This document shows, piece after piece, positions 22,599 through 42,604 of a stretch of DNA of 64,000 nucleotides (positions are counted from its first letter, which is position 1; every line of letters starts with the position of its first letter). The DNA is taken from the NCBI RefSeq assembly GCF_007970665.1, contig NZ_CP042430.1, forward strand, positions 1 to 64,000, given 5' to 3'. The notes beneath the pieces were generated by a model. The model did no database searches. It was not told the DNA's origin and saw nothing but the letters and a program-made list of their open reading frames with translations. The position numbers and the translations under genes were made by a program. The DNA is from Baekduia soli (GTDB lineage Bacteria > Actinomycetota > Thermoleophilia > Solirubrobacterales > Solirubrobacteraceae).

Positions 22599-24002
22599 TC
22601 AGGCCGGCGACGCCAGCCGCGCGATCGTCCCGAGGTCCTGCAGCCCGGCGAGGTCGGCGAGCACCGCGTCGAGCTCGTCGACCTGCGCCGCGGGCAGCAC
22701 GCCGCCGGCGCAGTCGCGGAACTTCAGCGACAGCTCGGCGGCGTCCAGCGGGCGCTGGGGGCTGCCGCGGTTCTCCAGGACGGCGAGCTCGTGCTCGCCC
22801 GACGCGGTCGTGATCGTCACGACCGCAGGGAAATGGTGGGGGAAGATCGCATCGCACCGGTCGTCGCGCACGCAGCGCACGCGCCCGGCGAGCGCGCGCA
22901 GCGCCGGGTCGGCGGCGCGCTCGTCGGTGAAGTCGCCCAGGCTGAGCCCGAGGCCGCCGCCGCCGAGCAGCGCCAGCGCGAACGTGAACGGAGCGCTGAA
23001 CTTCGCCGCGTAGCCCGTCGGCGGGGCGGCCTTGACCTCGGGCGGCTCGGCGACCGTGCGCAGCACGGGCCCGGCGAGGCCGACCTGCACGCCGAGCACG
23101 TCGCCGGGCGCGATGCCCGCCTCGCGCGCCATGAGCGCGGCGTCGATGACGGCGTGGGTGAAGTGGTTGCTGGGGTAGGGCTTGACGTGCAGCGTGTCGA
23201 TCTCCCAGCGCTCTCGGAGCCCGTCGGTGACCGCGTCGACGTCGGCCGCCTCGCGACAGTAGGCGTGCAGGAACCCGAAGCGGCCCTCGAAGGCCGTCGG
23301 CGCGCCCGTCAGCCCGGCGGCCGCGAGCTCGGCCGCCGCGACGCCGGCGTGCGCGGCCCAGCCGCAGTGCACGCGCTTGACCATGCCGCCCGTGCGATTG
23401 GCCTCCAGGATGCCCGCGCCCATGCTCGTCGCGATCGACATCGCGTGGGCGACCTGCTCCGCGTCCAGCCCCGTGACCAGCGCTGCGGCCGCCGCCGCCC
23501 CGACGGCCCCGCAGATCGCGGTCGCGTGCAGGCCGTGCTCGAAGAAGATGGAGTTCTTCAGCGCGGCGTCGTAGCCCGCCATGCCCAGGCGGCAGCAGAC
23601 CTCGTCGCCGACGGCCACGGCGGCCAGCAGCAGCGCACCTTCCGCGCCGGCGGCCTCGCCGGCGGCCAGCGCCGCGGGCACGACCGAGGCGCTGGGATGC
23701 AGCACGGACGGCAGGTGCGTGTCGTCGAAGTCGATCGCGTGGGCCAGCGTCCCGGTGACCAGCGCCGCGTGCGGGGCCGGCGCGCGCAGCGCGCGCCCGA
23801 CGGCACCCGCCGCGCCCGGCCCGCCCCAGCCGCCGACGACGCGCGTGACGGGGTCGTCGCCCCACTCGGCCCCGGCGGCGATGCAGATCCCGACGATGTC
23901 GCGGATGTGCCCGGTCATGCGCGCGGCACGCGTGTCGTCCAGGCCGTCACGGCGCACGGCGTCGGCGAACGCCGCGAGCTGCTCGGCGACCGGGGCGCTC
24001 AC
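22599..24002 (-). CDS. MmgE/PrpD family protein
   Basis: Family of 2-methylcitrate dehydratase, cis-aconitate decarboxylase and related lyases or isomerases. 467 aa. Typical segments: AHAIDFDDTHLPSVLHPSAS (DDxH-type motif), VAVGDEVCCRLGMAGY, FEHGLHATAICGAVGAAAAA, EANRTGGMVKRVHCGWAAHA, FLHAYCR and VKPYPSNHFTHAVIDAALMA. The GTG at 24002 overlaps the stop of the cyclase gene upstream, so it is the last gene of a leftward cyclase-lyase operon. The exact substrate, probably a hydroxy- or unsaturated polycarboxylic acid, is not known. Confidence 0.9.
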   Translation of the reverse strand: MSAPVAEQLAAFADAVRRDGLDDTRAARMTGHIRDIVGICIAAGAEWGDDPVTRVVGGWGGPGAAGAVGRALRAPAPHAALVTGTLAHAIDFDDTHLPSVLHPSASVVPAALAAGEAAGAEGALLLAAVAVGDEVCCRLGMAGYDAALKNSIFFEHGLHATAICGAVGAAAAAALVTGLDAEQVAHAMSIATSMGAGILEANRTGGMVKRVHCGWAAHAGVAAAELAAAGLTGAPTAFEGRFGFLHAYCREAADVDAVTDGLRERWEIDTLHVKPYPSNHFTHAVIDAALMAREAGIAPGDVLGVQVGLAGPVLRTVAEPPEVKAAPPTGYAAKFSAPFTFALALLGGGGLGLSLGDFTDERAADPALRALAGRVRCVRDDRCDAIFPHHFPAVVTITTASGEHELAVLENRGSPQRPLDAAELSLKFRDCAGGVLPAAQVDELDAVLADLAGLQDLGTIARLASPA

Positions 24003-24835
24003 GCCCCCACCAGGGCCAGCGGGTTGACCGGCGAGCCCGTGCCGCCGACGATCGGCAGCGGCGCGAGCACGAACGTGAACGCGGTGACGCCGTCGGCGGC
24101 GAGCCCCTCGAGGTCGAGCATCTCGACGATCGGCACGCCGGCCTCGACGAGCAGGACGCGGTGGGCGGGCAGCAGCGCGTGGCCGGCGCCCTCGGCGATG
24201 TGTTCGAACGCCGTGGTGTCGGAGCCGACGAGCCCGGCGCCCCGGGCCACGAGCCAGCGGGCGGCGTCCGCGGTCGGCCCGGGCACGCCGGTCTCGGCGC
24301 CGACGAACGCGGCCGCGTCGCCCCAGAGCTGGGCCCACCCCGTGCGGACGAGCACCGCGTCGCCCGGCGCGATCGCCACCCCAGCGGCCGCGGCGGCCGC
24401 CTCCAGCTCGGCCGGGGTGATCGGATGCGCGGCCGGCAGCCGGCCGACGTCGTGGACGCGGGCGGCGACGTCGAGCAGCACCCCGCGCGTGACCACCGGG
24501 CCGAGCGTGTCGATCCCGCAGGCCGAGAAGCGCCCGCCCCGCTGCGCCTCGTAGGCGTCGACGCCGCCGTGCAGGCGCCCCTCGTGCGAGACGTGCGCGA
24601 GCGCGTCGACGTGCGTGCCGACGTGACCGCCGGTGACGATGAGCTCGCTGGCCGCCGAGCCGCCGTCGGCGCGCACCATGTCGCCGTGGCGGCGCGTCAG
24701 CGCCAGGCGGAAGCCGGGGTGGTTGGGCGAGTGGGGCACGGCGGCGTGCAGCGGCTGGGCCAGCGCGTAGGTCCGCACGCCGGCCTCCAGCGCGCGCAGC
24801 AGCGCGTCGGGCACGGGCTCGGGGTCGGGGCTCAT
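23999..24835 (-). CDS. Cyclase family protein (kynurenine formamidase-like)
   Basis: 278 aa. The metal motif GGHVGTHVDALAHVSHEG (HxGTHxDxxxH) is the hallmark of this metal-dependent hydrolase family, which opens cyclic or N-formyl amides. Other members are KynB and isatin hydrolase. The C-terminal part has VGSDTTAFEH and HRVLLVEAGVPIVEMLDLEG. It overlaps both neighbours by 4 bases (CoA lyase upstream, PrpD downstream), a tight operon. In this context a ring-opening amide or lactone hydrolysis is plausible; the substrate is inferred only. Confidence 0.88.
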   Translation of the reverse strand: MSPDPEPVPDALLRALEAGVRTYALAQPLHAAVPHSPNHPGFRLALTRRHGDMVRADGGSAASELIVTGGHVGTHVDALAHVSHEGRLHGGVDAYEAQRGGRFSACGIDTLGPVVTRGVLLDVAARVHDVGRLPAAHPITPAELEAAAAAAGVAIAPGDAVLVRTGWAQLWGDAAAFVGAETGVPGPTADAARWLVARGAGLVGSDTTAFEHIAEGAGHALLPAHRVLLVEAGVPIVEMLDLEGLAADGVTAFTFVLAPLPIVGGTGSPVNPLALVGA

Positions 24836-25678
24836 CGGGCCTCCTCGGTCTCGGGGGTCGGGTCGTCCCAGGCCAGGGTCCGCCGCGCGAGCTCGACGAC
24901 CGCGCGGTCGACGTAGCGGCCGTCGGCCAGCAGCGTGTTGCCGTCGCCCCGCACGAGGGCGTCGACGAGCGCGCGGGCGTCGGCGAGCTCGTCGGCGGTC
25001 GGCGTGAACGCCGCGTTGATGACCGGCACCTGGCGCGGGTGCACCGCCGAGCGCCCGAAGAACCCGGCGTCGCGGCCGGCGCGGGTGCTGCGGGCCAGGC
25101 CGTCGAGGTCACGCACGTCGGTGAAGACGCTCTGCACGGGCGCCGGCAGGCCGGCGGCCCGGGCGCTGAGGACGCAGCGGCCGCGGGCGTGGGCCAGGCC
25201 GGCGTCGGCGGCGCCGGCGGCCACGCCGAGGTCGGCGCGCAGGTCGGCCTCGCCCAGGGCGATGGCCGCCACCGACGGGTGGGCGCGGGCGATCTCCGGC
25301 GCGCGCTCGACGCCCAGCGCGGACTCCAGCAGACAGCTCAGCCGCCGGCCCCCGCCGGCCCGGAGCAGGACGGCCGCCTCGCGTACGACCTCGGGCCCGT
25401 CGACCTTGGGCAGGCGGATCGTCGTCGCGGGCGCGCCGGCCAGCGCGGCGAGGTCGGCCCGGCCGGCCGGCGTGCCGACGGCGTTGACGCGGACGTGCAG
25501 CCGGCCACCGGGGTGCTCGCCCAGGAGCGCGACGACGTAGGCCCGGGCGCGGTCCTTGCGGTCGGCCGGCACCGCGTCCTCGAGGTCGGCCACGACGACG
25601 TCGGCCTCGCCGGCCAGCGCCTTCTCGACCAGGTCGGCGCGGTCGCCCGGCGCGTAGAGGTGCGACCGGGGCGCGCAC
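24832..25678 (-). CDS. HpcH/HpaI aldolase, citrate lyase beta/CoA-ester lyase-like
   Basis: TIM-barrel lyase of the CitE/malyl-CoA lyase type. Motifs: RSHLYAPGDRADLVEKALAG, DVVVADLEDAVPADRKDRAR (metal-binding Glu/Asp region), TTIRLPKVDGPEVV, SCLLESALGVERAPEIAR, ALGEADLRADLGV and GRSAVHPRQVPVINAAFTPT. It would cleave a hydroxyacyl-CoA or similar acid into two smaller units. There is no start codon in the main frame near the expected N-terminus. The GTG at 25678 gives the expected opening only after a small frame shift at codons 4-5, so the 5' end is uncertain. First gene of the leftward operon. Confidence 0.82.
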
Positions 25679-25868
25679 GCCGGCGACCGGGGCTCGGAGG
25701 GTGTTCCTTCAGGCGAAACGACAGGATCCCGTCGGGTGCTCCGCCACCGCGGCGGTGGTGGTCGCGGCGACGCTAGCACAGCGTCGGCGCGCTCCTCGGG
25801 GCTCCGCACGAGACCTCGAGTCCGGAGGTGGCGATCCGATAGGTTCGGGATGGATGCCGGCTCAGACC

Positions 25869-25885
25869 GTTCCTCTGAACGGAAC
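25869..25885. promoter_or_regulatory. Palindrome before hyuB (candidate operator)
   Basis: GTTCC and GGAAC are exact inverted repeats 7 bases apart. They lie just before the GTG of the first hyuB gene, in the region shared with the divergent CoA lyase operon. IclR-family boxes are often TTCC/GGAA palindromes, and an IclR gene lies 6 kb away, so a link is conceivable. It also overlaps the position of the ribosome binding site. Confidence 0.35.
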
Positions 25886-25888
25886 ATC

Positions 25889-27556
25889 GTGACGACGGTC
25901 GACCCCGTCACGCTCGCGGTCCTGCAGGGCCGGCTCGAGCAGATCGTCGACGAGATGGACGCCACGCTGTTCCGCAGCGCGTTCAACCCGACGATCGCCG
26001 AGGCCCACGACGCCTGCCACGGCATCTACGACGCCCGGACCGGCGACACGCTCGTGCAGGGGACCTCGGGGCTGCCGATCTTCGTCGGCGCCATGGCGTT
26101 CGCGGTCCGGCTGGCGATCGCCCGCGCCGAGCGCGACGGCGGCCCGGCCGACGGCGACGTGTACGTCTTCAACGACCCCTACGCGGGCGCCACGCACCTC
26201 AACGACGTCAAGCTCGTGCGCCCGCTGTTCCGCGACGGGCGCCTGTTCTGCTGGCTGGCCTCGGTCGGGCACTTCAACGACGTCGGCGGCAACGTCCCGG
26301 GCAACTACAACCCGGCCGCGCGCGAGAGCCACCAGGAGGGCGTGCTGCTGCCCCCGGTCAAGCTCGTCGACGCGGGCGTCCTGCGCGAGGACATCGTCGA
26401 CATCATCCGCGCGATCGGCCGGGCGCCCGACAACGCCTACGGCGACCTGCGCGCCCAGCTGTCGGCGCTGGGGCTCGGCGCCCGGCGGCTCGCCCTCCTG
26501 CTCGACGACTACGGCGACGACGTCGTCGCGGCCGCCTTCGGGCAGCTCACCGACGCGGCCGAGCGCCAGACCCGCGCGTGCATCGCCGGGCTGGCCGACG
26601 GCACCTACGCCTGCGACGACCACCTCGACAACGACGGCATCACCGACGTGCCGATCCGCGTCGCGGTGACCGCGACGGTGCGCGGTGACCGGCTGGCCCT
26701 GGACTTCACGGGGACCGACCCGGCCTGCGCCGGCCCGCTGAACATCTCGCGGGCCACGGCGACCGCGGCCTGCTACGTCGCGATCAAGCACCTCTTCCCC
26801 GAGGTGCCGGCCAACGCCGGGTGCCTGCGGCCCGTCGACATCGCGATCCCCGGCGGCAGCCTGCTCGACGCCGTGGCGCCCCGCCCGGTCGGCGGCTACA
26901 CCGAGACGATCCTGCGCGTGATGGAGATCCTCTTCGGCGCCATCGCCCAGGCCGGCCCCGAGCGCGCGCTGGGCTGGTCCTACGGGACCATCAACGCGCT
27001 GTCGCTCGCCGGGCATCGCGACGACGGCAGCCGCTGGGTCATGTTCACGTTCTTCGGCGGTGGCCTGGGCGGCTCGTCGTCCGGCGACGGCCTCAACCAC
27101 GGCAGTGCGCCCCTGTCGACCGCCGTCATCCCGCCCGTGGAGGTCTTCGAGGCCACCTACCCGGTCCGCTTCACGCGCTGGGCGCTGCGCGAGGGCAGCG
27201 GCGGCACGGGCGAGCACCGCGGCGGCCTCGGCGCGACCTACGAGCTCGAGGTGCTCGGCGCCGAGGCCGAGGCCTTCGTCTTCGGCGAGCGCGCGCGCCA
27301 CGCCCCGCGGGGCACGCTGGGCGGTGGCGACGGCGCGCCCAACGTCGTGACCTGGACCGATGCCGACGGCCCCCACCACCCGGCCCTGGGCGCCAAGGCG
27401 ACGGGGATCCGGCTGCATCGCGGGGACCGCCTGCGCATCGACAGCCCCGGCGGCGGCGGCTACGGCGACCCGGCGCGCCGCGCGCCCGAGGCCGCCGAGC
27501 GCGACCGCCGGCTCGGCTACGTCGCCGGCGACGGCACCGGCCCGGAGGCGCCGTGA
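25889..27556 (+). CDS. HyuB-type hydantoinase/oxoprolinase B subunit, pair 1
   Basis: B subunit of an ATP-dependent hydantoinase/5-oxoprolinase/carboxylase family enzyme that works with HyuA. 555 aa. The start TTVDPVTLAVLQGRLEQIVD is typical. Other family segments: VFNDPYAGATHLNDVKLVRP, ASVGHFNDVGGNVPGNYNPA, SHQEGVLLPPVKLVDAG, LDFTGTDPACAGPLNISRAT, PVGGYTETILRVMEILFGAI and SPGGGGYGDPARR at the end. The GTG at 25889 fits the family start; an ATG at 25850 adds 13 residues. The stop overlaps the hyuA start by 4 bases. The substrate is not readable from sequence: hydantoins, oxoproline, lactams and aryl ketones are all known in the family. Confidence 0.93.
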   Translation: MTTVDPVTLAVLQGRLEQIVDEMDATLFRSAFNPTIAEAHDACHGIYDARTGDTLVQGTSGLPIFVGAMAFAVRLAIARAERDGGPADGDVYVFNDPYAGATHLNDVKLVRPLFRDGRLFCWLASVGHFNDVGGNVPGNYNPAARESHQEGVLLPPVKLVDAGVLREDIVDIIRAIGRAPDNAYGDLRAQLSALGLGARRLALLLDDYGDDVVAAAFGQLTDAAERQTRACIAGLADGTYACDDHLDNDGITDVPIRVAVTATVRGDRLALDFTGTDPACAGPLNISRATATAACYVAIKHLFPEVPANAGCLRPVDIAIPGGSLLDAVAPRPVGGYTETILRVMEILFGAIAQAGPERALGWSYGTINALSLAGHRDDGSRWVMFTFFGGGLGGSSSGDGLNHGSAPLSTAVIPPVEVFEATYPVRFTRWALREGSGGTGEHRGGLGATYELEVLGAEAEAFVFGERARHAPRGTLGGGDGAPNVVTWTDADGPHHPALGAKATGIRLHRGDRLRIDSPGGGGYGDPARRAPEAAERDRRLGYVAGDGTGPEAP

Positions 27557-29613
27557 GCGGCGCGTGCGGGCCCGCGACGGTCGTCGGCATCGACGTCGGC
27601 GGCACGTTCACCGACATCCTGGTGCTCGACGAGCGCACGGGGCGCGCGCGCACCGCCAAGGTCCCGTCGACGCGCACGCGCGAGGCCGCGGGCTTCCTGC
27701 GGGGCCTGCGCTCGGTCGTGGCGCCCGCCGACGTCGCCGCGATCGTGCACGGCACGACGGTGGCGACCAACGCCCTGCTGGAGCGCAAGGGCGCACCGTG
27801 CGGGGTCATCACGACCCGCGGCTTCCGCGACGTGCTGGAGATGCGCCGCCGCGATCGTCCCACGACGTGGGGCATGCGCGGCGACTTCGTCCCCGTCGTC
27901 CCGCGCGACCTGCGCGTGGAGGTCGACGAGCGCGTCGGCGCCGACGGCGAGGTCGTCGTGCCCGTCGACCCCGCCGAGGTCGCCGCGGCGGCGCGCGAGC
28001 TGCGCGGGCGCGGCGCACAGGCCCTCGTCATCGCGTTCATCAACGCCTACGCCAACGACGCCAACGAGCAGGCGGCGGCCCGCGCGGTCGACTGGCCGGA
28101 GGAGCTCGTGACGGTCTCGAGCGCGCTGCTCGCCGAGATCCGCGAGTTCGAGCGGACGTCGACCGCCGCGCTCAACGGCTACCTGCAGCCCGTCGTCGGG
28201 CCCTACCTCCGGCGCCTGGAGGACGACCTCGCCGCCGACGGCTTCGCCGGGCGCTTCCTCGTCGTGCAGTCCAACGGCGGCGTGGTGCCCGCCGACGAGG
28301 CCCGGCGCTTCCCGGTGCGCACCGCGCTCTCGGGCCCCGCGGCCGGCGTGGTCGCCGCGGCGCGCACCGCGGCCGACGCCGGAATCGGCGACGTCATCAC
28401 CTGCGACATGGGCGGCACGTCGTTCGACGTCGCGCTCGTCGCCGGCGGCGCGGCGGCCTTCGCCCAGCAGGCCGCGATCGAGTTCGGCCTTGTGATCCGC
28501 ACGCCGATGGTCGAGATCACGACGATCGGCGCGGGGGGCGGCTCGATCGCCCACGTCGACGCCGGGGGCCTGCTGCGCATCGGCCCCGAGTCGGCGGGCA
28601 GCGTGCCGGGGCCGGCGGCCTACGGGCTGGGCAACGACCGTCCGACGGTCACCGACGCCAACGTCGTCCTCGGCCGCATCGACGCCGAGCACCCGCTCGG
28701 CGAGGGCCTGGGTCGCCTGGACGTCGACGCGGCGCGGGCCGCGCTGGCCGCCCACGTCGGCGCGCCGCTCGGCCTGGGGGTCGAGGCCGCCGCGCAGGCG
28801 GTCATCGACGTCGCCAACGCCCGCATGGCCGGCGCGATCCGGCTCATCTCGATCCAGCGCGGCCACGACCCCACGCGCTTCTCGCTCATGCCCTTCGGCG
28901 GTGCGGGCGCGCTGCACGTCGGGGCGCTCCTGCGCGAGGTCGGCTGCCCGCAGGCGCTCGTACCGCCGCTGCCCGGGATCACGAGCGCGCTGGGCTGCGT
29001 GCTGGCCGACCTGCGCCACGACTACGTCCACACGCTCAACGTCGCGCTGGAGGCCCTCGACGGCGCGGCGCTGGCCGCGGAGATGGCCGCGACCGCCCGG
29101 CGCGGGACCGAGGCGCTCTCGGCGACCGGGGTGGCGCTGGAGGGCATCGACGTCCTGTTCGAGGTCGACATGCTCTACCGCGGCCAGAGCCACGCCGTGG
29201 CCGTGCCGGTCACGCTGCCCGGCGGCGGCGCAGCGGTGGCCGGCGCCGACGTCGCCGCCGCGTTCGACCGCCGCTACGAGGAGGCCTACGGCCAGACGCT
29301 GGCCGGCGTGCCCGTGCTGCTGCAGACCCTGCGCACCGCGGTCGTCGGGCGCCGACCGCGCGTCGACCTCTCGGGCTTCCGGCCGCCGGACGGCGCGACG
29401 GCCGACGCCGCGCGTCGGGCCACCCGGCCCGTGTGGACCGACGGGCGCTGGCAGGACACGCCGGTCTACGACCGCCTGGCGCTGCCCGCCGGCGCGCGGC
29501 TCGAGGGCCCCGCCGTGCTGCAGCAGCCCGACACGACGATCCTCGTGGAGCCCGGCTCGACCGCGACGGTCGACGCGCTGGGCAACCTGCTCATCGAGGT
29601 CGCCCGCGCGTGA
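27553..29613 (+). CDS. HyuA-type hydantoinase/oxoprolinase A subunit, pair 1
   Basis: 686 aa ATP-binding subunit with an actin-like fold. TVVGIDVGGTFTDILVLDER is the first phosphate loop. HGTTVATNALLERKGAPCGV and TRGFRDVLEMRRRDRP follow, then FERTSTAALNGYLQPVVGPY. CDMGGTSFDVALVAGG is the second phosphate loop, and TIGAGGGSIAHVDAGGLLRI is the adenosine-side loop. The C-terminal domain includes SLMPFGGAGALHVGALLREV. It phosphorylates or activates the cyclic substrate so the B subunit can hydrolyse or carboxylate it. The start GTG lies inside the hyuB stop, and its own stop overlaps the isochorismatase-fold gene. Confidence 0.94.
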   Translation: MSGACGPATVVGIDVGGTFTDILVLDERTGRARTAKVPSTRTREAAGFLRGLRSVVAPADVAAIVHGTTVATNALLERKGAPCGVITTRGFRDVLEMRRRDRPTTWGMRGDFVPVVPRDLRVEVDERVGADGEVVVPVDPAEVAAAARELRGRGAQALVIAFINAYANDANEQAAARAVDWPEELVTVSSALLAEIREFERTSTAALNGYLQPVVGPYLRRLEDDLAADGFAGRFLVVQSNGGVVPADEARRFPVRTALSGPAAGVVAAARTAADAGIGDVITCDMGGTSFDVALVAGGAAAFAQQAAIEFGLVIRTPMVEITTIGAGGGSIAHVDAGGLLRIGPESAGSVPGPAAYGLGNDRPTVTDANVVLGRIDAEHPLGEGLGRLDVDAARAALAAHVGAPLGLGVEAAAQAVIDVANARMAGAIRLISIQRGHDPTRFSLMPFGGAGALHVGALLREVGCPQALVPPLPGITSALGCVLADLRHDYVHTLNVALEALDGAALAAEMAATARRGTEALSATGVALEGIDVLFEVDMLYRGQSHAVAVPVTLPGGGAAVAGADVAAAFDRRYEEAYGQTLAGVPVLLQTLRTAVVGRRPRVDLSGFRPPDGATADAARRATRPVWTDGRWQDTPVYDRLALPAGARLEGPAVLQQPDTTILVEPGSTATVDALGNLLIEVARA

Positions 29614-30203
29614 GCACCGCGGTCCTGCTCATCGACCTGCAGCACGACTTCCTCTCGCCCGACGGCGCCTATGGGCGCGCCGGGCTGGGCAACGCCGACC
29701 TCGCCGCGCTGCCCGCGCGCGTGGCGCCGGTCCTGGACGCCGCCCGAGCCGCCGCCGTCCCCATCGTCTCGGCGCAGTTCACGATCGTCGCCCGCCGCGG
29801 GCGCCCGCCCCAGATCGCCGAGCACCTGCACGCCCTGCGCCCGTTCCTGGGCCCGGGCGACTTCGAGCCGGGCCGCCGCGGGCACGACCTCGTCGACGCG
29901 CTCGCGCCGGCCGACGTCGTCGTGGAGAAGGTCGCGTTCTCGGCGTTCCACCAGTCGCGCCTGGAGTGGGTGCTGCAGGGGCTGGGCGCCGACCACCTGC
30001 TCGTCGCCGGGATCGTCACCAACGGAGGGGTGGCCTCGACGGTCCGCGACGCCCACGTCCGCGGGCTGGCGACCACGCTGCTGGCCGACGGCTGCGCGGC
30101 GTTCGACCGCGAGGCCCACGACGCGACGTTGCGCTCGCTGCGCGGGGTGACCCGCCTGAGCACCTGCGCCGGGGCGATCGGCGAGCTGGCCGCCGGCGCC
30201 TGA
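29610..30203 (+). CDS. Isochorismatase-fold hydrolase lacking the catalytic cysteine
   Basis: 197 aa of the isochorismatase/cysteine hydrolase fold. Asp9 (AVLLIDLQHDF) and Lys107 (VVVEKVAFSAF) of the usual Asp-Lys-Cys triad are present. The loop that normally reads T-x-x-C-V is GIVTNGGVASTVRDA, with Gly140 at the cysteine position. Amidases and nicotinamidases need that Cys; true isochorismatases of the PhzD kind do without it. So it probably does not act through a thioester intermediate. It is co-translated with hyuA (4-base overlap), so its substrate is likely linked to the HyuAB product. A sequence error is possible but would need more than one base change. Confidence 0.88.
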   Translation: MSTAVLLIDLQHDFLSPDGAYGRAGLGNADLAALPARVAPVLDAARAAAVPIVSAQFTIVARRGRPPQIAEHLHALRPFLGPGDFEPGRRGHDLVDALAPADVVVEKVAFSAFHQSRLEWVLQGLGADHLLVAGIVTNGGVASTVRDAHVRGLATTLLADGCAAFDREAHDATLRSLRGVTRLSTCAGAIGELAAGA

Positions 30204-30217
30204 CCGGCCGCCGGCCC

Positions 30218-31255: not shown

Positions 31256-31290
31256 GCACGGATGCTAGAGGCGCCATAGAGTCGCGCGTC

Positions 31291-34310: not shown

Positions 34311-35068
34311 CCGCCCTGCCGCTGCAGGGCCGCCACGCGCTGGTCACCGGCGCGGGGCGCGGGCTGGGCCGCGCCTGCGCGCTGGCGCTGGCGCGGGCGG
34401 GCGCCGACGTCACCGCGCTGTCGCGCACGGACTCCGACCTGGCGTCGCTGGCCGCCGAGGCGGCGGAGGGCCCGGGCGGCCGCGTCTGGCCCCACGCGGC
34501 CGATGCCGGCGACGAGCGGGCCGTGGTCGAGGCCGTCGCGGCGGCCGAGGCGCGGGCGCCGCTGTCGATCCTGCTGGCCTCCGCGGGCACGAACCGTCCG
34601 GGCCCGACCGTCGACGTCACGCTCGAGGACTTCGACGCCATCATGTCGCTCAACGTGCGGGCGGCGTTCGTCGCCTGCCGCGAGGTCGGCCGCCTGCTGC
34701 TCGAGCACGGCCGGCCCGGGCGGATCGTGCTCATGTCCTCGCAGATGGGCAGCGTGGGCTACCCCGGCCGCGCGGTCTACTGCGCCAGCAAGCACGCCGT
34801 CGACGGCCTCACGAAGGCGCTCGCCGTCGAGTGGGCGCCGTCGGGGATCACGGTCAACGCGGTCGCCCCCACGTTCATCCGCACGCCCCTGACCGAGCCC
34901 ATGCTCGCCGACGACGCGTTCCGCGCCGACGTGCTGCGCCGCATCCCCGCCGGCCGGATCGGCGAGGTCTCCGACGTCGCCGGCGCCGTGCTCTACCTCG
35001 TCTCCGACGGTGCCGCCATGGTCACCGGCCACGTCCTGGCCGTCGACGGCGGCTGGACCGCGTGGTGA
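34307..35068 (+). CDS. Short-chain dehydrogenase/reductase (SDR)
   Basis: 253 aa: ALVTGAGRGLGRACALALAR, an Arg in the position favouring NADP (TALSRTDSD), ASAGTNRPGPTVDVTLEDFD, IVLMSSQMGSVGYPGRAVYC with the Tyr and Lys of YCASKHA, VNAVAPTFIRTPLTEPMLAD and the end VDGGWTAW. Last gene of the cupin-dehydrogenase-SDR operon (4-base overlap). Resembles sugar-acid or 3-oxoacyl reductases; substrate unknown. Confidence 0.9.
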   Translation: MTALPLQGRHALVTGAGRGLGRACALALARAGADVTALSRTDSDLASLAAEAAEGPGGRVWPHAADAGDERAVVEAVAAAEARAPLSILLASAGTNRPGPTVDVTLEDFDAIMSLNVRAAFVACREVGRLLLEHGRPGRIVLMSSQMGSVGYPGRAVYCASKHAVDGLTKALAVEWAPSGITVNAVAPTFIRTPLTEPMLADDAFRADVLRRIPAGRIGEVSDVAGAVLYLVSDGAAMVTGHVLAVDGGWTAW

Positions 35069-35081
35069 GCGCGGCGGTCGC

Positions 35082-36848
35082 TCAGCGCCCCGCGCGGAGC
35101 GCCTGCGTGGCCGCGGCGTCGACGCTGCCGTCGCGGCCCAGCACGACGCCGTAACTGCGCCGCGCCTCGTCGAGGTCGACGAAGCCGTCGAGGTAGTCCT
35201 CGGCGACGGCCGCCGGGTCGCGCTCGAACGGGTCGCCGTAGCCCGCCGAGCTGGGGGTCTCGATCCGCAGCAGGTCGCCGTCCTTGAACTCGACCCCCGT
35301 CAGCAGGGCGGGCAGCGACTCCTCGCGCGGTCCGCCGGGGTTTCGCGTCATCGCGGCGGTGACGCCGTCGCTGCCGCCGTAGACGCCCCGGGGCGGGTCG
35401 TAGTGGCGGTCGGCCTCCGACGAGACGTAGCCGTCGGTCAGGTAGCGGGTCTCGCGCACGATCCCCACCCCGCCGCGCCAGCGCCCAGGCGCCGGCGGCT
35501 CGGGGCGCAGCTCGTAGCGCTCGCACCGCAGCGGATAGCGGCCCTCGAGCTCCTCGATCGGGTTGTTGCGCGTGTTGACGAGCAGGCTGTCGACGGAGTC
35601 CAGGCCGTCCATCCCGTAGCGGCCGCCGTAGGAGGACTCGTTGATCTCCATGTACACCCAGTACTGGGACTTCTCGGGCTGGAACCCGCTGTAGGAGATC
35701 GCGTGGCAGACGGCGCCGTTGCCCGCGGTCGTGCGCTCGGGCCACGGGTCCGACAGCGCCAGGATCACGTTGTCGCAGATCCGCTCGCACTTCATGAACC
35801 GCCCGCTGGAGGCGCGCGGGAACCGCGGGTTGTAGATCGTCCCCTCGGGGGCCACGACGGTGATCGCCCGGAAGATCCCATCGTTCTGGGGGACGTGGAC
35901 GTCGCTGAGCGCGTCGTCGAGCAGGATGGTGCGGATGATGTAGTAGGCGGCGACCTGGGTCGCGCCCTCGAACGGCGAGTTGTAGCTCGTCGGGCTCTCG
36001 GCCTCGCTGCCCGTCAGGTCGACGGTGATGTCCGAGCCCGAGACCTCGACCGCGCACTCGACGCGCAGCGGCCGCCCGCGGTCGCGGCCGTTGTCGTCCA
36101 GCCACCCCGTGGGCGCCCGGTAGCGGCCGTCCGGGATCTTCTCGATCTCGCGCCGCATCATGAACTCGGAGTAGTCCATCCACTCCTCGGCGGCGGCGAA
36201 GACGGTGTCCTTGCCGTAGCGCTCCAGGAGCGCGACGAAACGGTCGCGCCCGACGCGGCAGGCGGCGATCATCGCGTCGAGGTCGCCGCGGTTCTCCTCG
36301 GGCACGCGCGTGTTGCCCAGGATGTGGCGCCACAGCTCGCGGTTCAGCGTGCCGGCCTCGTAGATCTTCAGCGCGTCGTAGATCTTGTTCTCGGCCCACA
36401 TGTCGAAGACGTCCATGTTGAGCCCGGGCGCCGCGCCGCCGAGGTCGAGCATGTGCCCCGTGACCCCGGCGAAGGCGACCGCCTCGCCGGCGAAGAAGAT
36501 GGGCATGATGATCGCGGCGTCGGGCGAGTGCGACGCGCCCTTGTAGGGGTGGTTGTGCAGGACGATGTCGCCGTCGGACCAGTCGTCGGCCCACGTCTGG
36601 CGGATGCCGCGGATGTACCAGGGCAGCGACCCGATGTGCATCGGGCTCGTGTCGCTCTCGCAGATCTCGCGGCCCGTGAGGTCGAAGATCCCGGCGCCCA
36701 TGTCCTCGGACTCGCGGATGATGCCCGACAGCGACATCCGGATCTGGACGGAGGCCATCTCCTGGGCGACGGACTCGAACGCGCCGCCGAGCACCCGGAA
36801 GGTGATGGGGTCGAGCCTGCGCTCGGGGCGGGCGGTGGGCTCAGGCAT
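35082..36848 (-). CDS. HyuB-type hydantoinase/oxoprolinase B subunit, pair 2
   Basis: 588 aa, about 33 longer than the HyuB of pair 1 and only distantly similar. Typical parts: LDPITFRVLGGAFESVAQEM, IVLHNHPYKGASHSPDAAII, FAGVTGHMLDLGGAAPGLNM, VDLTGSEAESPTSYNSPFEG, PEKSQYWVYMEINESSYGGR and IETPSSAGYGDPFERDP. The subfamily differs from pair 1 (HNHPYKGASH in place of FNDPYAGATH), so a different substrate, perhaps closer to acetone- or acetophenone-carboxylase types, is likely. The ATG at 36848 overlaps the HyuA stop by 8 bases. Confidence 0.92.
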   Translation of the reverse strand: MPEPTARPERRLDPITFRVLGGAFESVAQEMASVQIRMSLSGIIRESEDMGAGIFDLTGREICESDTSPMHIGSLPWYIRGIRQTWADDWSDGDIVLHNHPYKGASHSPDAAIIMPIFFAGEAVAFAGVTGHMLDLGGAAPGLNMDVFDMWAENKIYDALKIYEAGTLNRELWRHILGNTRVPEENRGDLDAMIAACRVGRDRFVALLERYGKDTVFAAAEEWMDYSEFMMRREIEKIPDGRYRAPTGWLDDNGRDRGRPLRVECAVEVSGSDITVDLTGSEAESPTSYNSPFEGATQVAAYYIIRTILLDDALSDVHVPQNDGIFRAITVVAPEGTIYNPRFPRASSGRFMKCERICDNVILALSDPWPERTTAGNGAVCHAISYSGFQPEKSQYWVYMEINESSYGGRYGMDGLDSVDSLLVNTRNNPIEELEGRYPLRCERYELRPEPPAPGRWRGGVGIVRETRYLTDGYVSSEADRHYDPPRGVYGGSDGVTAAMTRNPGGPREESLPALLTGVEFKDGDLLRIETPSSAGYGDPFERDPAAVAEDYLDGFVDLDEARRSYGVVLGRDGSVDAAATQALRAGR

Positions 36849-38931
36849 CGTGCGCTCCTGCGGCGGGGGTCAGGTCGGCGGTGAGGATCCCGTACGGGTT
36901 GACCTGCACCGTCTGGCCCGGCGGGACGATCGTGGTCGACTCGAACTGCTGGATGACGGCGGGCCCGGCGACGGTCTGGCCGGGCGCCAGGTCGTCGCGG
37001 ACGTAGAACGGGCAGGGCAGCCGCACGGGCTCCCCGGCGACACGGAACCAGACGTCGTGGGTGGCGTGCGGGTCGGCGGCCTCGCGTGGCTCCAGCAGCG
37101 GCCAGACGACCCGCTGCAGCTCGCCGACGCCACGGACGCGGACGTTGACGACCTCGATGGCCTGCTCGCGGTAGGCGCGGTAGTACTCGCGCTCGTGCCG
37201 ATCGTGGAAGGCCTCGGTGAGCCGCGCCAGCCAGTCCTCGGAGGCCTCGCCCTCCGGGCACGCGACGCGCAGCTCGTAGCCCTGGCCGGCGTAGCGGCAC
37301 TCGGCATAGCGCTCCATGCGCCGGTGCGTGGCGGGCACCCGGTCGCGCTCCATGGCCGCCGAGGCCTGGGCCTCGAGCTGCGCGAAGGCGAGGGCGAGCC
37401 CGTCGAGGCCGGACCCCTGGTTGCCGCTGCGCATGACCGTGCGGCCGAACTCGTAGACCGTGTCGCTGGTCAGCAGCCCCAGCGCCGAGGTCAGCCCCGG
37501 GCCGGGCGGGACGACCAGGCGCGGGATGTCCATCCGCGCGGCGATGTCGAACCCGAACAGCGGGCCCGCGCCGCCGAACACGACCAGGCCGAAGTCCCGC
37601 GGGTCCAGGCCCCGGCGCACGCTGCTGGCCTCGATGGCGGTGACCGTCGTCTCCGTGGCGATCTCCAGGATTCCCAGCGCGGCCTCGGCGACGCCGATCC
37701 CGAGCGGCTCGGCCAGCCGGGTGCGGATGGCGTCCTCGGCCAGGCCGGGGTGCAGGGGCAGCGCGCCGGACAGCAGCGCGTCGGCACGGATGCGCCCGAG
37801 CACGACCTCCGCGTCGGTCACCGTCGGCTCCGTGCCGCCCCAGCCGTAGCAGGCGGGCCCCGGCGAGGCGCCCGCGCTGCGCGGGCCCACGCGCATGACG
37901 CCGCCGGCGTCGAGGAAGGCGATGCTGCCGCCGCCCGCCCCGACCGCCTCGCAGTCGAGCATGGGCATCATGGTGTGGTAGCCGCCGACCTGGGAGTCCA
38001 GGATGTGCTTCATCCGGAACTCGCGGTGCGGCGCCACGCCGATGTCCACCGACGTGCCGCCCATGTCGATGGTGATCACGCTGTCGACCCCGGCCAGCTC
38101 GCCGGCCCAGATCCCGCCGAGCACGCCGGCCACGGGCCCCGACATGAGCAGCGAGACCGGCAGCTCGCGGGCGCCCTCGGCCGAGACGACGCCGCCGGCC
38201 GAGTTCATCAGGCGCAGCTCGTCGGGCACCCCGGCGTCCTGCAGCGCCGCGGCGATCCGCCCGACGTACTCGCGCACTGACGGAGCGACGTAGGCGTTCA
38301 GGGCGGTGGTGCTGAAGCGCTCGTACTCGCGGAACTGCGGGATGACCTCCGAGCTCGTGCACACGAACAGCTCCGGGGCCACCTCCTGGCAGATCGCCTT
38401 GGCCCGCGCCTCGTGCTCCGGGTAGAGGTAGGATCACAGGAACCCGATGGCGATGGCCTCCACCCCGCTCTCGCGCAGCTCCACGGCGGCGGCCCGCACG
38501 GCGTCCTCGTCGAGCGGGATGAGCGTCCGGCCGTCGGCGGTCACGCGCTCGGGCACCGGCAGGCGGAACCGGCGGCGCGCCAGCGGGTGCGACTGCCACG
38601 GCAGCTCCTGGAAGAGGCTGAACGAGTAGGGCTTCTTGTGGCGGGCGGTGTGGAGGATGTCGCGGTAGCCCGCGGTCGTGATGAACCCGACGCGCGCGCC
38701 GCGCCGCTGGACCACGACGTTGGTGGCCGTCGTCGTCCCGTGCGAGACGCGCTGCACGCCGTCGAGGTCGATGCCGGCCAGGTCGGCCACGGTCCGGATG
38801 CCCTCCAGTGCGGCGGTCGACGGGTCGGCCGGCGTGGACGGGAGCTTGTGCACCGTCGGACGGCCCAGCTCGTCGTCCCACAGCACGATGTCCGTGAACG
38901 TGCCGCCGACATCCACACCGATCCGCCGCAT
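36841..38931 (-). pseudogene. HyuA-type subunit, pair 2, interrupted by in-frame TGA
   Basis: Full-length HyuA sequence (about 696 codons) broken by one TGA at 38434-38436, codon 166. Before it: MRRIGVDVGGTFTDIVLWDD, HGTTTATNVVVQRRGARVGF, ESGVEAIAIGFL. Directly after it, in the same frame: SYLYPEHEARAKAICQEVAP, FERFSTTALNAYV-type sequence, ITIDMGGTSVDIGVAPHREF, GAGGGSIAFLDAGGVMRVGP. Everything except the stop is intact. Relatives often have Trp or His at this position, so a TGG to TGA change is the simplest explanation. If real, the pair-2 enzyme is dead unless the stop is read through; if it is a base error the gene is normal. Confidence 0.88.
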
Positions 38932-39022
38932 CCGCGTCCGCCCCGTGTCGCCTGTGCCGGCCGTCGGCCGGACCCGCGGGCACCGTAGCCGGGACGCCCC
39001 GGTCGCGTCCAGGGGAGGGCGC

Positions 39023-40603
39023 CTACGGCCCGCTCACCAGCGCCGCGCCCTCGCTGCGAGGGTCGCTGGCCGGTGTCAGCGTGCCGCCGGGCTCGATCCG
39101 GATGGCCTGGGCGTGGCCGACCTGGGCGTCGAAGTCGTCGAGGGCGGTGACCGGCAGGCCCGTCGTGGCCAGCGACGCCCGGGCCGTCGCGGGCACGCGG
39201 CCCTCGGCGAGCACGACGTCGGCCGGCTGGCCGGCACCCGCGCCGCCGACGACCCAGCGCGGGGCGTGCAGCGCCTCCTGCAGGCCGAGGCCGCGGCGCA
39301 GGTGCAGGTGCACATGGGCCAGGATCTGCGCCTGGCCGCTGCCGCCCATCGTGCCGAGCACGAGGACCGGGCGCCCGTCGCGCAGCAGCATGGACGGCAT
39401 GAGCGTGTGGGCCGGGCGCTTGGACGGCTCGAGGCGGTTGGGCGACCCGCGATCCAGCGTGAAGTACGCGCCGCGGTTGTGGCAGATGATCCCCGTGGCC
39501 GGGTCCATGAGACCGGAGCCGAATGCGTGGAACAGGCTCTGGATGAGGCAGACGGCGTTGCCCTCGCCGTCGGCGGTGACGATCGCGACCGTGTCGCCGC
39601 GGGGCCGGGGCCCCGGCTCGCCGCCGCCGGCGGGCGCGTCCCCGGCGGCCGCGCGGCGCGCGACCTCGCGCAGGTGGTCCTCGCCCAGCAGGACGTCGAG
39701 CGGCACGGGCGTGAAGCGCGGGTCGCAGAGGTGGCGGCGGCGGTCCTCCAGCGTCGCCGCCGCGATCCGGGCCAGCGACGCGGCCTGCGGGCCCAGCGGG
39801 TCCAGCGCGGGGTCGACGTGCTCCAGCGCGCCGAGCAGCAGCGCCAGCAGGAACCCCTGCGTGTTGGGGCGGGAGGTCAGCAGCTCGTCCTCGCCCAGCG
39901 CGAAGGACAGCGGCGCGCCGCGCTCGGGCGCGAAGCCCGCGAGGTCCTCGGCGTCGAGGACCGAGCCCTGCGCGCGCAGGAACGCCAGCAGGGACGCTCC
40001 CAGCTCGCCCCGGTACAGCGCGTCGGGCCCGCCGTCGGCCAGGAGCTCCAGGGAGCGGGCCAGCGCAGGCTGGCGCAGCGCGCCGCCCGGCCCGAGCACG
40101 GCGCCGTCGTCGCCGAGGAAGACCTCGCGCATGCCCGGGTCGGCCGCCAGGAGCGCGGCGTCGCCCTGGAGGGCGTGGGCCAGCGACGGCGGCACGGCGA
40201 CGCCCTCGCGGGCCTGCGCCACCGCCGGCGCGAACGCGTCGGCCCACGGCCGCCGTCCCCCCTCCGACCACACCGCGTGCAGCCCCGCGACGAGCCCGGG
40301 GACCGTGATGGGGTCGGTCCCGTGGACCGGCATCTCTGCGTGCCGCGCGCGGACGGCGTCCGGATCGGTCGCGCGCGCCGAGGGACCCGAGGCGTTGATC
40401 TCGACGGTCGGCCGCCCCGCGCGGTGCACGAGCGCGATCAGGTCGCCCCCCAGGGCGCAGTTGTTGGGGTAGACGACGGTCAGCGACAGCGCCGCGGCCA
40501 GCGCGGCGTCCATGGCGTTGCCGCCGTCGCGGTAGGCGGCGATCGCGGCCTCGGAGGCGGCGGCCTGGGGTGCGGCGACGGCACCATGGGTCGGCCGGGT
40601 CAT
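39023..40603 (-). CDS. Gamma-glutamyltransferase family protein
   Basis: 526 aa Ntn-hydrolase, GGT/cephalosporin acylase type. Large-subunit part: AASEAAIAAYRDGGNAMDAA, YPNNCALGGDLIALVHRAGR, EINASGPSARATDPDAVRA. The autocleavage point is the Thr in PRPRGDTVAIVTADGEGNAV. The small subunit follows: LIQSLFHAFGSGLMDPATGI, SKRPAHTLMPSMLLRDGRPV, LGTMGGSGQAQILAHVHLHL. No signal peptide, so it is cytoplasmic, unlike classical exported GGT. In the island it may cleave or transfer an amide-linked acyl group. Confidence 0.9.
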   Translation of the reverse strand: MTRPTHGAVAAPQAAASEAAIAAYRDGGNAMDAALAAALSLTVVYPNNCALGGDLIALVHRAGRPTVEINASGPSARATDPDAVRARHAEMPVHGTDPITVPGLVAGLHAVWSEGGRRPWADAFAPAVAQAREGVAVPPSLAHALQGDAALLAADPGMREVFLGDDGAVLGPGGALRQPALARSLELLADGGPDALYRGELGASLLAFLRAQGSVLDAEDLAGFAPERGAPLSFALGEDELLTSRPNTQGFLLALLLGALEHVDPALDPLGPQAASLARIAAATLEDRRRHLCDPRFTPVPLDVLLGEDHLREVARRAAAGDAPAGGGEPGPRPRGDTVAIVTADGEGNAVCLIQSLFHAFGSGLMDPATGIICHNRGAYFTLDRGSPNRLEPSKRPAHTLMPSMLLRDGRPVLVLGTMGGSGQAQILAHVHLHLRRGLGLQEALHAPRWVVGGAGAGQPADVVLAEGRVPATARASLATTGLPVTALDDFDAQVGHAQAIRIEPGGTLTPASDPRSEGAALVSGP

Positions 40604-40648
40604 GCGGGCATGATCGCCGACGGCCCGCCGACCTGGCACGATCGGGCC

Positions 40649-41053
40649 ATGCGCCGCACGATCACGACGCTGCTGATGTTCGAGGGCCGGGCCGAGGAGG
40701 CGATGCTCCGCTACGCCGAGATCTTCGGCGACGCGGCCATCGAGGCCATCGAGCGCTACGGCCCCGAGGGCCCGGGACCCGAGGGCACCGTGGTGCACGC
40801 GACGCTGCGGCTGGGCGAGCAGCGCGTGCAGTGCACCGACAGCCCGGTCGCGCACGCGTTCACGTTCACGCCGGCGACGTCGCTGATGGTCGACTGCGAC
40901 AGCGAGGCCGAGGTGCAGCGGCTCTTCGAGGCGCTCGGGCAGGCCGGCGAGGTCCTCATGCCGCTGGACGCGTACCCGTTCAGCCCGCGGTTCGGCTGGG
41001 TCAACGACCGCTTCGGCGTCTCGTGGCAGCTGCGCTTCGTCCCGCCGGCCTGA
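40649..41053 (+). CDS. VOC-family (PhnB-like) protein
   Basis: 134 aa of the glyoxalase/PhnB fold: RRTITTLLMFEGRAEEAMLR, AIEAIERYGPEGPGPEGTVV, ATLRLGEQRVQCTDSPVAHA, DSEAEVQRLFEALGQAGEVL and RFGWVNDRFGVSWQLRF. Members bind metals or small ligands; most have no assigned reaction. Divergent from the GGT-like gene. The start is the ATG at 40649, fitting the family N-terminus better than an upstream ATG at 40611. Confidence 0.85.
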   Translation: MRRTITTLLMFEGRAEEAMLRYAEIFGDAAIEAIERYGPEGPGPEGTVVHATLRLGEQRVQCTDSPVAHAFTFTPATSLMVDCDSEAEVQRLFEALGQAGEVLMPLDAYPFSPRFGWVNDRFGVSWQLRFVPPA

Positions 41054-41062
41054 CCGCCCGCG

Positions 41063-42604
41063 CTACCAGGTGTCCACGGTCCGCCCGCTGGCCTGCGGCG
41101 TCCCGGCCGCGATGAGCGTCGCGGCCAGCACGGCGCGCGTCTCGGCGGGGTCGATCACGTCGTCGAGCTCGAAGAGCTCGGCGGCGTTGATGGCCTTGGC
41201 GTTCTCCTGCGCCGCCGCGGTCAACTCGCGCACGCGCTCCTCGCGCTCGGCCTCGTCGGCGATCGCCTCGAGGTCGCGGCGCATCGCCAGGCGCACCGCG
41301 CCCTCCAGGCCCATCGGGCCCAGGTGCGCCCCCGGCCAGGCGACCGTGAGCACGGGCTCGTGCAGGCTGCCGCCGACCATGGCCTGGGCGCCCAGGCCAT
41401 AGCCCCGGCGCAGCACGACCGCCAGCAGCGGCACGGTCAGCGCCGCGCCGGCGACGAGCATCCGCGACGTGTGGCGCACCAGGGCGCTGGCCTCGTGGCG
41501 CGGCCCGACCATGAAGCCGGGCGTGTCGACGAGCGAGATCACCGGCAGGCCGAACGCGTCGCAGAGCTGCAGGAAGCGCGCGGCCTTGTCGGCCGACTCG
41601 GCCATGATCGCGCCGGCCACGTACTTGGTGTTGTTGGCCAGGACGCCCACCGGCCGGCCCTCGATGCGCGCCAGCGCGGTGACCATCTCGCGCGCGAAGT
41701 TCGGGCGCAGCACCGTGACCGAGCCCTCGTCGGCCAGCCCGCGGATGACCGGCACGACGTCGTAGGCGCGGCGGCCGCTCTCGGGCAGCAGGTCGCGCAG
41801 CCGCGTCTGGTCGGGCGCCGTGAACGCCTCGGCCGGGCCCTGGAAGTAGCCCAGCAGCACCTTGGTGACCGCGACGGCCTCGGCCTCGTCGGCCACGACG
41901 AGGTCCACGCAGCCGTTGGGCTCCTGCATGCTCATCGGGCCGACGTCGTCGGGCGCGACATCGCCGAGGCCGCCGCCGGCGATCATCGCCGGGCCGCCCA
42001 TGCCCAGCGACGCGTCCTGCGTGGCGATGATGAGGTCCGAGCAGCCCGCGATGACGGCGTTGCCGGCGAAGCAGCGCCCCTTGACGATCGCGATGCGCGG
42101 CACGCGGCCGGCCAGGCGCGCCCAGAACGCGAAGGCGCGCGTGTGCAGCCACGAGACGGCGGGGAAGTCGGTCTCCCCCGGCCGGCCGCCCCCGCCCTCG
42201 GCGAAGAAGACGACGGGCAGCTCGAGGCGCTCGATGAGCTCGAACAGCCGGTCCTTCTTCTGGTGTCCGAGCATGCCCTGGGTCCCGGCCAGCACCGTGT
42301 AGTCGTAGGCCAGCACGGCGCACGGGTGCCCGCCGATCCGCGCGGTCCCGGCGACCAGGCCGTCGGCCGGCGTGTTGGCGACGAGGTCGTCGACGTCGCG
42401 GCGCGCGCGCTGGGCCGCGATCGCGAAGCGCCCGTACTCGACCCAGGACCCCTCGTCGACGAGGTCGGCGACGTTCTCGCGCGCCGTGCGGCCTCCGCGC
42501 TCGTGGCGCCGGGCGACGGCCTCGGCGCGCGCGGCGTCCTCGGTCAGCGCGCGGCGGCGCAGCACCTCGGCCAGGTCGTCGCGGATCGCGGGCGTGTCGC
42601 TCAT
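41063..42604 (-). CDS. Acyl-CoA carboxylase carboxyltransferase subunit
   Basis: 513 aa with both crotonase-like halves. N half: GGRTARENVADLVDEGSWVE, PCAVLAYDYTVLAGTQGMLG, PVVFFAEGGGGRPGETDF, KGRCFAGNAVIAGCSDLIIA. C half: FGLPVISLVDTPGFMVGPRH, MLVAGAALTVPLLAVVLRRG, AWPGAHLGPMGLEGAVRLAM. It transfers CO2 from carboxybiotin to an acyl-CoA such as propionyl- or methylcrotonyl-CoA. The biotin carboxylase partner is not in the window. A propionyl-type carboxylase would fit a pathway ending in short acyl-CoA units. Confidence 0.92.
   Translation of the reverse strand: MSDTPAIRDDLAEVLRRRALTEDAARAEAVARRHERGGRTARENVADLVDEGSWVEYGRFAIAAQRARRDVDDLVANTPADGLVAGTARIGGHPCAVLAYDYTVLAGTQGMLGHQKKDRLFELIERLELPVVFFAEGGGGRPGETDFPAVSWLHTRAFAFWARLAGRVPRIAIVKGRCFAGNAVIAGCSDLIIATQDASLGMGGPAMIAGGGLGDVAPDDVGPMSMQEPNGCVDLVVADEAEAVAVTKVLLGYFQGPAEAFTAPDQTRLRDLLPESGRRAYDVVPVIRGLADEGSVTVLRPNFAREMVTALARIEGRPVGVLANNTKYVAGAIMAESADKAARFLQLCDAFGLPVISLVDTPGFMVGPRHEASALVRHTSRMLVAGAALTVPLLAVVLRRGYGLGAQAMVGGSLHEPVLTVAWPGAHLGPMGLEGAVRLAMRRDLEAIADEAEREERVRELTAAAQENAKAINAAELFELDDVIDPAETRAVLAATLIAAGTPQASGRTVDTW

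Follow-up and report, generated by a model that had tools for sequence, protein, structure and literature searches.

The 64,000-nucleotide stretch analyzed here (the window) covers the first 64 kb of the 5.2-Mb, one-contig genome of Baekduia soli, and at 22599-42604 it holds an island of catabolic genes with two HyuAB pairs, which raises the question of whether the island encodes one pathway or several. Genes were predicted with a codon-model caller and families were assigned with Pfam and NCBIfam, and the gene content and order given for the island in an earlier note, made from the sequence alone, were confirmed in this way. On balance, we favor the reading that the island consists of juxtaposed modules and that the segment at 22599-30203 is a HyuBA catabolic operon, widespread among soil bacteria, for ring opening, desaturation, hydration, and C–C cleavage. 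Only this segment holds together in other genomes; the full 20 kb does not. Its genes are the following.

22599-24002, minus strand: MmgE/PrpD-family protein, putative hydratase/dehydratase (Pfam PF03972, PF19305)
23999-24835, minus strand: cyclase-fold metal hydrolase of the isatin hydrolase/kynurenine formamidase superfamily (Pfam PF04199)
24832-25593, minus strand: CitE/RipC-like CoA-ester lyase (Pfam PF03328)
25889-27556, plus strand: HyuB1, metal subunit of a putative ATP-dependent lactam/imide hydrolase (Pfam PF02538)
27553-29613, plus strand: HyuA1, ATP-binding subunit (Pfam PF05378, PF01968, PF19278)
29610-30203, plus strand: isochorismatase-fold protein g28 (Pfam PF00857)

Exact 4-base overlaps join the PrpD-like, cyclase, and CitE-like lyase genes on the minus strand (22599-25593) and HyuB1, HyuA1, and g28 on the plus strand (25889-30203). 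A third group joined in the same way, comprising cupin, HAD-type dehydrogenase, and SDR2 genes (32959-35068, plus strand), lies further right. The earlier note described three groups tied by such overlaps, which were found as stated; its view of each group as one transcript is a probable consequence of that arrangement.

HyuB1 has orthologs (59–78% identity) in Actinomycetota, Alphaproteobacteria, and Paraburkholderia. Named genomes, when scanned, yielded 17 loci (L141-L157, 60–78% identity), of which 3 are from Actinomycetota and 14 from Alphaproteobacteria. Among plasmids, 926 records matched, most of them at less than 60%, and 8 among the 20 listed were examined, 6 as annotated records and 2 by tblastn. 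Annotated operons were found in Roseomonas, Azospirillum, Neorhizobium, and Paraburkholderia, and the operon lies on plasmids in the last three. Neighbors were counted by tblastn (E 1e-8, 40% query coverage) in 23 loci, L141-L157 and L179-L184, which span 4.2-25.6 kb, several being limited by contig ends and several being close kin (two each from Salinarimonas, Azospirillum, and Geminicoccaceae); two further complete operons, L189 and L190 (tblastn), stand outside this count. As a rough yardstick, 11 control HyuAB loci of 20 kb each, carrying 42–57% relatives of either pair, were taken from this and related genomes.

An isochorismatase-fold gene was detected in 18 of the 23 loci (1 of the 11 controls), a C–C lyase in 19 (3 controls), a hydratase in 17 (3 controls), a flavin dehydrogenase in 12 (no control), and the substrate-binding protein of a HAAT transporter in 11 (no control). 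Three features are frequent in the orthologous loci and rare or absent in the controls, and so mark the operon: the isochorismatase-fold gene, the flavin dehydrogenase, and the transporter. CoA-transferase is no such mark, for it was found more often in the controls (6 of 11, against 4 of 23), and cyclase (3 loci, 1 control) and IclR (2 loci, 1 control) matches were few. Four of the five loci that lack the isochorismatase-fold gene (L142, L144, L148, and L155) end before its place, and L146 is truly without it. Relatives of nine gene types from the right two-thirds of the island (LLM, SDR1, cupin, HAD dehydrogenase, SDR2, HyuAB2-type, GGT, VOC, and carboxyltransferase) were found in none of the 23 loci over the lengths covered, so the conserved neighborhood by which the earlier note proposed to check the island does not extend to that part. 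Among the controls, SDR2 relatives occurred in four, SDR1 relatives in three, and LLM relatives in one. The sole right-hand gene with a possible link to the module is that for the IclR regulator, a relative of which (46% identity) lies beside the module in L143.

In an unrooted HyuB tree, from which L156 was left out as too short and which does not include L189 and L190, a 100/100 branch separates HyuB1 and 22 orthologs from HyuB2 and the control paralogs. The PDB N-methylhydantoinase 7hk5 matches HyuB2 with 654 bits and HyuB1 with 224 bits. The two pairs, called unrelated in the earlier note, do belong to different subfamilies by tree and match scores, but they are distant members of one superfamily. 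Comparison of HyuB1 with 120 other related genomes gave a single close relative (78% identity), in the Solirubrobacteraceae genome G050; the next-best genome reached 45%, and the best other match in the Baekduia genome itself was 46%. The G050 contig (L121, the same as L141) has the same divergent layout and conserves the module with its 4-base overlaps, with PrpD, cyclase, lyase, and CoA-transferase III genes on one strand and HyuB, HyuA, isochorismatase-fold, and flavin dehydrogenase genes on the other. Relative to the window, it adds the CoA-transferase III, the flavin dehydrogenase, and an adjoining nitrilase-family gene.

HyuA1 retains the ATP motifs DVGGTFTD at position 14, DMGGTSFD at 285, and GSVPGP at 349, and alignment of HyuB1 to 6yra_B gives a metal tetrad of D41, H103, D106, and H128, so that the phosphate and adenosine motifs of HyuA and the Asp-His-Asp-His tetrad of HyuB are all present in pair 1. 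According to the caprolactamase report (PMC8453981), the equivalent residues of that enzyme are Asp41, His99, Asp102, and His124, and Ala mutants at these positions are inactive. Pair 1 thus shares the HyuA ATP motifs and the HyuB site with caprolactamase CapAB (6YRA) and the hydantoinase/oxoprolinase family. It differs from CapAB in falling below the caprolactamase equivalog cut-offs (NF050156 and NF050157, 1000 bits; CapA 481, CapB 278) and in having hydratase and lyase genes as neighbors, and it belongs to another subfamily than N-methylhydantoinase 7HK5.

The third protein of the plus-strand group, g28, keeps D9 and K107, and alignment places Gly140 (TNGGV) where cysteine hydrolases carry Cys. 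The motif TNGG(V/I) was found in all 19 aligned copies (13 + 6), with Gly replacing Cys in every one, and g28 is therefore not an ordinary cysteine amidase; it also scores below the cut-offs for RutB (55.9 against 377.95 bits) and BiuH (58.3 against 370 bits). The isochorismatase-fold gene of the sole positive control locus does carry Cys. The g28 proteins form an isochorismatase-fold subfamily that lacks this Cys and keeps a constant gene context. True isochorismatases such as EntB and PhzD have Gly at the Cys position in an Asp-Lys-Gly site, and by analogy with them g28 may act by protonating a double bond (that of an enamide, for instance) or may do something else.

On the minus strand, the PrpD-like protein is 66–67% identical to its counterparts in L141 and L142 and 52% identical to that of L143. 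It misses the 2-methylcitrate dehydratase PrpD equivalog (38 bits against a cut-off of 950), and its best PDB match is IDS-epimerase 2hp3. In L142 (3-2824), genes for a Rieske oxygenase alpha subunit and a dihydroxyacid dehydratase lie beside PrpD, the oxygenase being a possible candidate for treating the ring before it is opened. The cyclase-fold protein, 68–70% identical to the L121 copy, carries HVGTHVDALAH, which agrees with the metal motif HxGTHxD...H of PF04199 cyclases and isatin hydrolase. It matches the uncharacterised structure 5ibz (1e-18) and, as best named relative, isatin hydrolase 4j0n (5e-17). A cyclase-PrpD pair (55 and 46% identity) is also present in L191 (G252:C56), where a HyuAB match was absent from the 12 kb examined. 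The lyase at 24832-25593 scores below the RipC (153 against 375 bits) and citE (133 against 443 bits) equivalog cut-offs, the protein being N-terminally short. Its G050 ortholog (64–65% identity) has a longer N terminus (277 amino acids); the window frame runs on upstream (25593-25700, minus strand) without a usable start codon where the ortholog begins, and the GTG at the equivalent place lies in another frame.

Around the HyuBA core, the endings of the operon vary. In the fullest proteobacterial loci, GntR is followed by five HAAT transporter genes, a LeuCD-like or PrpD hydratase, a PrpB/ICL-like lyase, HyuB, HyuA, the isochorismatase-fold gene, and the flavin dehydrogenase. Three loci from Actinomycetota have PrpD, cyclase, CoA-transferase III, and CitE-like lyase genes instead, so that the lyase is PrpB-like in Proteobacteria and CitE-like in these three; in L142, a CoA-transferase match is absent on its contig, and in L143, the CitE-like lyase has only 40% identity. 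LeuCD stands at the operon end in Azospirillum. In Paraburkholderia, the lyase follows the isochorismatase-fold gene and a flavin dehydrogenase match is absent. In Tistrella, acyl-CoA dehydrogenase, CoA-transferase, and LeuCD genes follow the isochorismatase-fold gene, the first two occupying the place that the flavin dehydrogenase has in most other loci. In the Acetobacteraceae-type loci L151, L154, and L156, the transporter is missing, and a thiolase-like gene and its small partner lie divergently upstream of HyuB, perhaps as a third solution to C–C cleavage.

Profile scores set these enzymes apart from their best-known relatives. Both PrpB-like proteins scanned missed the PrpB equivalog TIGR02317 (cut-off 354; L157 280 bits, L149 288 bits). 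The L157 protein matches methylisocitrate lyase 3eoo (7e-61) better than dimethylmalate lyase 3fa3 (3e-47). One hydratase, that of L157, passes the homoaconitate-hydratase model TIGR01343 (470 against 386 bits), with the general model NF001614 scoring higher (527 bits). The transporter substrate-binding protein of L157 matches Leu/Ile/Val-type and other amino-acid binders, which says little about the substrate. The pairing of a hydratase with an ICL-type lyase, seen in many proteobacterial operons, resembles the back half of the methylcitrate cycle (PrpD/aconitase and PrpB), but the operon PrpB-like proteins and the window PrpD lie below the cut-offs, and the operon starts with HyuAB ring opening. 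In nicotinate fermentation, 2,3-dimethylmaleate hydratase and dimethylmalate lyase are an aconitase-type hydratase and an ICL-type lyase acting on a disubstituted maleate. The operon has the same enzyme types, with the L157 lyase closer to methylisocitrate lyase; no B12 mutase or isomerase of that route was noticed in the operon loci, no search being aimed at them. The actinomycetotal loci share the logic of CoA-transferase plus CitE-like lyase with itaconate degradation by RipABC, but the window lyase lies below the RipC cut-off and HyuAB stands upstream. The hydratase family of the RipABC route also differs from the hydratases of the HyuAB1 operon.

From the observed gene conservation, protein families, active-site residues, and varied lyase and hydratase families, we infer the reactions of a pathway and its substrate class. 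HyuA1 with ATP, and probably with bicarbonate as in caprolactamase, would activate a cyclic lactam or imide, and the HyuB1 metal site would open the ring. The opened product would then be processed and its nitrogen released by the Cys-less isochorismatase-fold protein, joined in Actinomycetota by the cyclase-fold metal hydrolase, a nitrilase-family amidase, or both; nitrogen release may instead come from the cyclase-fold enzyme or from the nitrilase-family genes of L141 and L143. A branched di- or tricarboxylate would be desaturated by the flavin dehydrogenase, or in Tistrella by CoA-transferase and acyl-CoA dehydrogenase, and hydrated to a substituted malate by PrpD or a LeuCD/aconitase-like enzyme. 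The lyase would finally yield a 2-oxo acid and a carboxylic acid, acting on the free acid where PrpB-like (Proteobacteria) and on the CoA ester where CitE-like (the actinomycetotal loci). The conserved neighbors suggest this route from an opened lactam or imide to a branched acid that is desaturated, hydrated, and cleaved, and the exchange of one lyase, hydratase, or desaturase type for another around a constant core fits, by family chemistry, a shared sequence of branched succinate, fumarate or maleate, malate, and two acids. The working model of the earlier note, HyuAB opening followed by a CoA-ester lyase, accordingly fits the conserved left third of the island and is not supported as a 20-kb pathway; the orthologous loci supply the CoA-transferase or desaturase that the window module lacks alongside.

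As to the substrate, a long shot is a disubstituted maleimide or succinimide; hematinic acid and methylethylmaleimide, which arise when haem and chlorophyll are broken down, would be examples. The imide ring would be opened by HyuAB, nitrogen would be released, a homoaconitase-like or PrpD enzyme would hydrate the 2-methyl-3-alkylmaleate, and a methylisocitrate-lyase-like or CitE-like enzyme would give pyruvate plus glutarate or butyrate. The malate formed from hematinic acid would be a homolog of methylisocitrate differing by one carbon, which would fit the homoaconitate-type hydratase and the PrpB-like lyase of L157, the latter below its cut-off. By their titles and the opening lines of their abstracts, the open-access papers found on such fragments do not concern a bacterial route. 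A citrazinate/isonicotinate route, leading from an imide to aconitate, is a further possible reading of the operon, for which no paper was found in the open-access literature.

Several observations weigh against a ring-opening and cleavage operon of this kind. Its presence is patchy, in that only G050 of the 120 related genomes has a close HyuB1. Support for the CitE-like ending comes from three loci and the window, one of them at 40% identity, and CoA-transferase III is not enriched relative to the controls. Hydratase matches were below threshold in six of the 23 loci (L144, L147, L151, L152, L154, and L156), that of L144 being a fragment at a contig end. Four loci were without a lyase match (L146, L151, L152, and L179) and 11 were without a flavin dehydrogenase match, several of the contigs being short. 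Perhaps g28 is not an amidase of any kind. The best match to the flavin dehydrogenase in this genome was 34%, so no close one was found; with this enzyme missing and a damaged start to the lyase, this copy of the module may be incomplete.

This last point bears on the rival to be taken most seriously, that the window module is a decaying remnant, or that its lesions are assembly errors, and that it tells little about the organism. We regard this as unlikely, though it deserves to be kept in mind. In addition to the start-less lyase and the absent flavin dehydrogenase, 4 of the 33 HyuB genes in this genome (38 match pieces merged by eye) are in pieces, compared with none of 29 in G062; on the other side, the frames of HyuB1, HyuA1, PrpD, cyclase, and g28 are open, and the catalytic motifs of HyuA1 and HyuB1 are present. 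Either assembly error or real decay may have caused the lyase-start and HyuA2 defects. Neither a desaturase nor a CoA-transferase adjoins the module. CoA-transferase III relatives at 2.79 Mb (58% identity) and 0.79 Mb (56%) each lie beside a CitE-like lyase, and the CoA-transferase and lyase steps may therefore be supplied in trans.

The remaining rivals concern what the enzymes do and how far the pathway reaches. HyuAB1 belongs to the same superfamily as the acetone/acetophenone-type carboxylases and could be such a carboxylase and no hydrolase, which seems improbable: ApcA (171 bits), ApcC (285 bits), and ApcD (117 bits) scores miss the acetophenone carboxylase equivalog cut-offs of 1250–1500 bits, the ApcC and ApcD scores lying far under the 1500-bit cut-offs; the hydrolases 7hk5 and 6yra score higher; and a Pfam scan of 30 of the 57 window proteins showed no third carboxylase subunit. 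HyuAB with an isochorismatase-fold hydrolase is the signature of the creatinine/N-methylhydantoin route, and RutB, biuret hydrolase, and N-carbamoylsarcosine amidase are among the relatives of g28, so that HyuAB1 and g28 might open a hydantoin and hydrolyze an N-carbamoyl product as in creatinine degradation. With Gly at the catalytic position in 19 of 19 copies, this route was dropped for the module as quite improbable; hydratase, desaturase, and lyase neighbors would also be unexpected for sarcosine or amino-acid products. Least probable, to the point of being very doubtful, is the single pathway over all 20 kb proposed in the earlier note, with both HyuAB pairs acting on two substrates or steps. 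The tight packing, the three overlapping groups, and the single IclR gene in mid-region speak for it, but the right-hand gene types are absent from the HyuB1-orthologous loci, HyuAB2-like loci and GGT matches have other neighbors, and HyuA2 is interrupted.

The right-hand genes, identified by profile scans unless noted otherwise, are the following.

30218-31255, minus strand: F420-type LLM oxidoreductase, not conserved with the module
31309-32055, plus strand: SDR1, not conserved with the module
32045-32839, minus strand: IclR-family regulator that may act on the module (Pfam)
32959-35068, plus strand: cupin, HAD-type dehydrogenase (3HCDH family), and SDR2, a separate overlapping unit
35082-36848, minus strand: HyuB2, N-methylhydantoinase-like subfamily (Pfam; 654 bits to 7hk5)
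36841-38916, minus strand: HyuA2, split by an in-frame TGA (gene calls, Pfam, motifs)
39023-40603, minus strand: GGT-like hydrolase
40610-41053, plus strand: VOC protein
41063-42604, minus strand: MmdA-like carboxyltransferase

HyuB2 and HyuA2 overlap by 8 bases, and the likely metal ligands of HyuB2, by motif, are D49, H107, D110, and H132. An in-frame TGA at 38436-38434 (minus strand) divides HyuA2 into frames of 160 (38434-38916) and 513 amino acids (36841-38382), the first ATP motif lying in the N-terminal frame and the second, with the adenosine motif, in the other, so that no single HyuA of pair 2 contains all ATP motifs. A conserved read-through or split was rejected: among 53 distinct aligned stretches, this one alone has the stop, the others having N (24), H (14), F (13), or W (1), and the stop is therefore seen solely in this assembly. 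Pair 2 resembles N-methylhydantoinase 7HK5 (HyuA2 C-terminal part, 467 bits) apart from the interruption, and is closer to 7hk5 than to 6yra. Its paralogs in this and related genomes (~46–57% identity) have other neighbors. In L133 (G000:C1:2771001-2791000), the genes after a HyuAB pair 50–51% identical to pair 2 encode a CitE-like lyase and a CoA-transferase III that is 58% identical to that of L121. L196 (G000:C1:783001-799000) has cyclase, CoA-transferase III, CitE-like, and PrpB-like genes, with a HyuAB match absent from the 16 kb examined. Two adjoining HyuB genes, nearly alike pairwise, occur in G062 and in this genome (L129 and L132; tree end branches 0.05-0.09), and the other 119 related genomes have at most 19 HyuB each (first-look candidates).

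The HAD dehydrogenase-SDR2 pair recurs in G068 (L125; 57 and 59% identity) with LacI, ABC transporter, nitrilase-family, and AMP-binding genes, and no HyuAB match was found on that 12-kb contig. For GGT, 11–12 candidates per genome were scored and positions were compared by eye. Among the matches listed, no GGT relative in ten other genomes was near a HyuA or HyuB place, the nearest listed place on a shared contig being ~58 kb off (G083:C10). A gamma-glutamyl cycle (GGT plus 5-oxoprolinase) was rejected for the right side on these grounds and on the closeness of HyuAB2 to 7hk5. GGT, VOC, and carboxyltransferase relatives were likewise not found beside the HyuAB loci examined.

No description of this HyuBA operon was found in the open-access literature searched. 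Its enzymes are of known families, and the new point is their combination. That Actinomycetota and Proteobacteria have this operon in common, with one core and differing lyase endings, suggests a naturally occurring ring compound as its substrate, and the plasmid-borne copies of Azospirillum, Neorhizobium, and Paraburkholderia should make knock-outs feasible.

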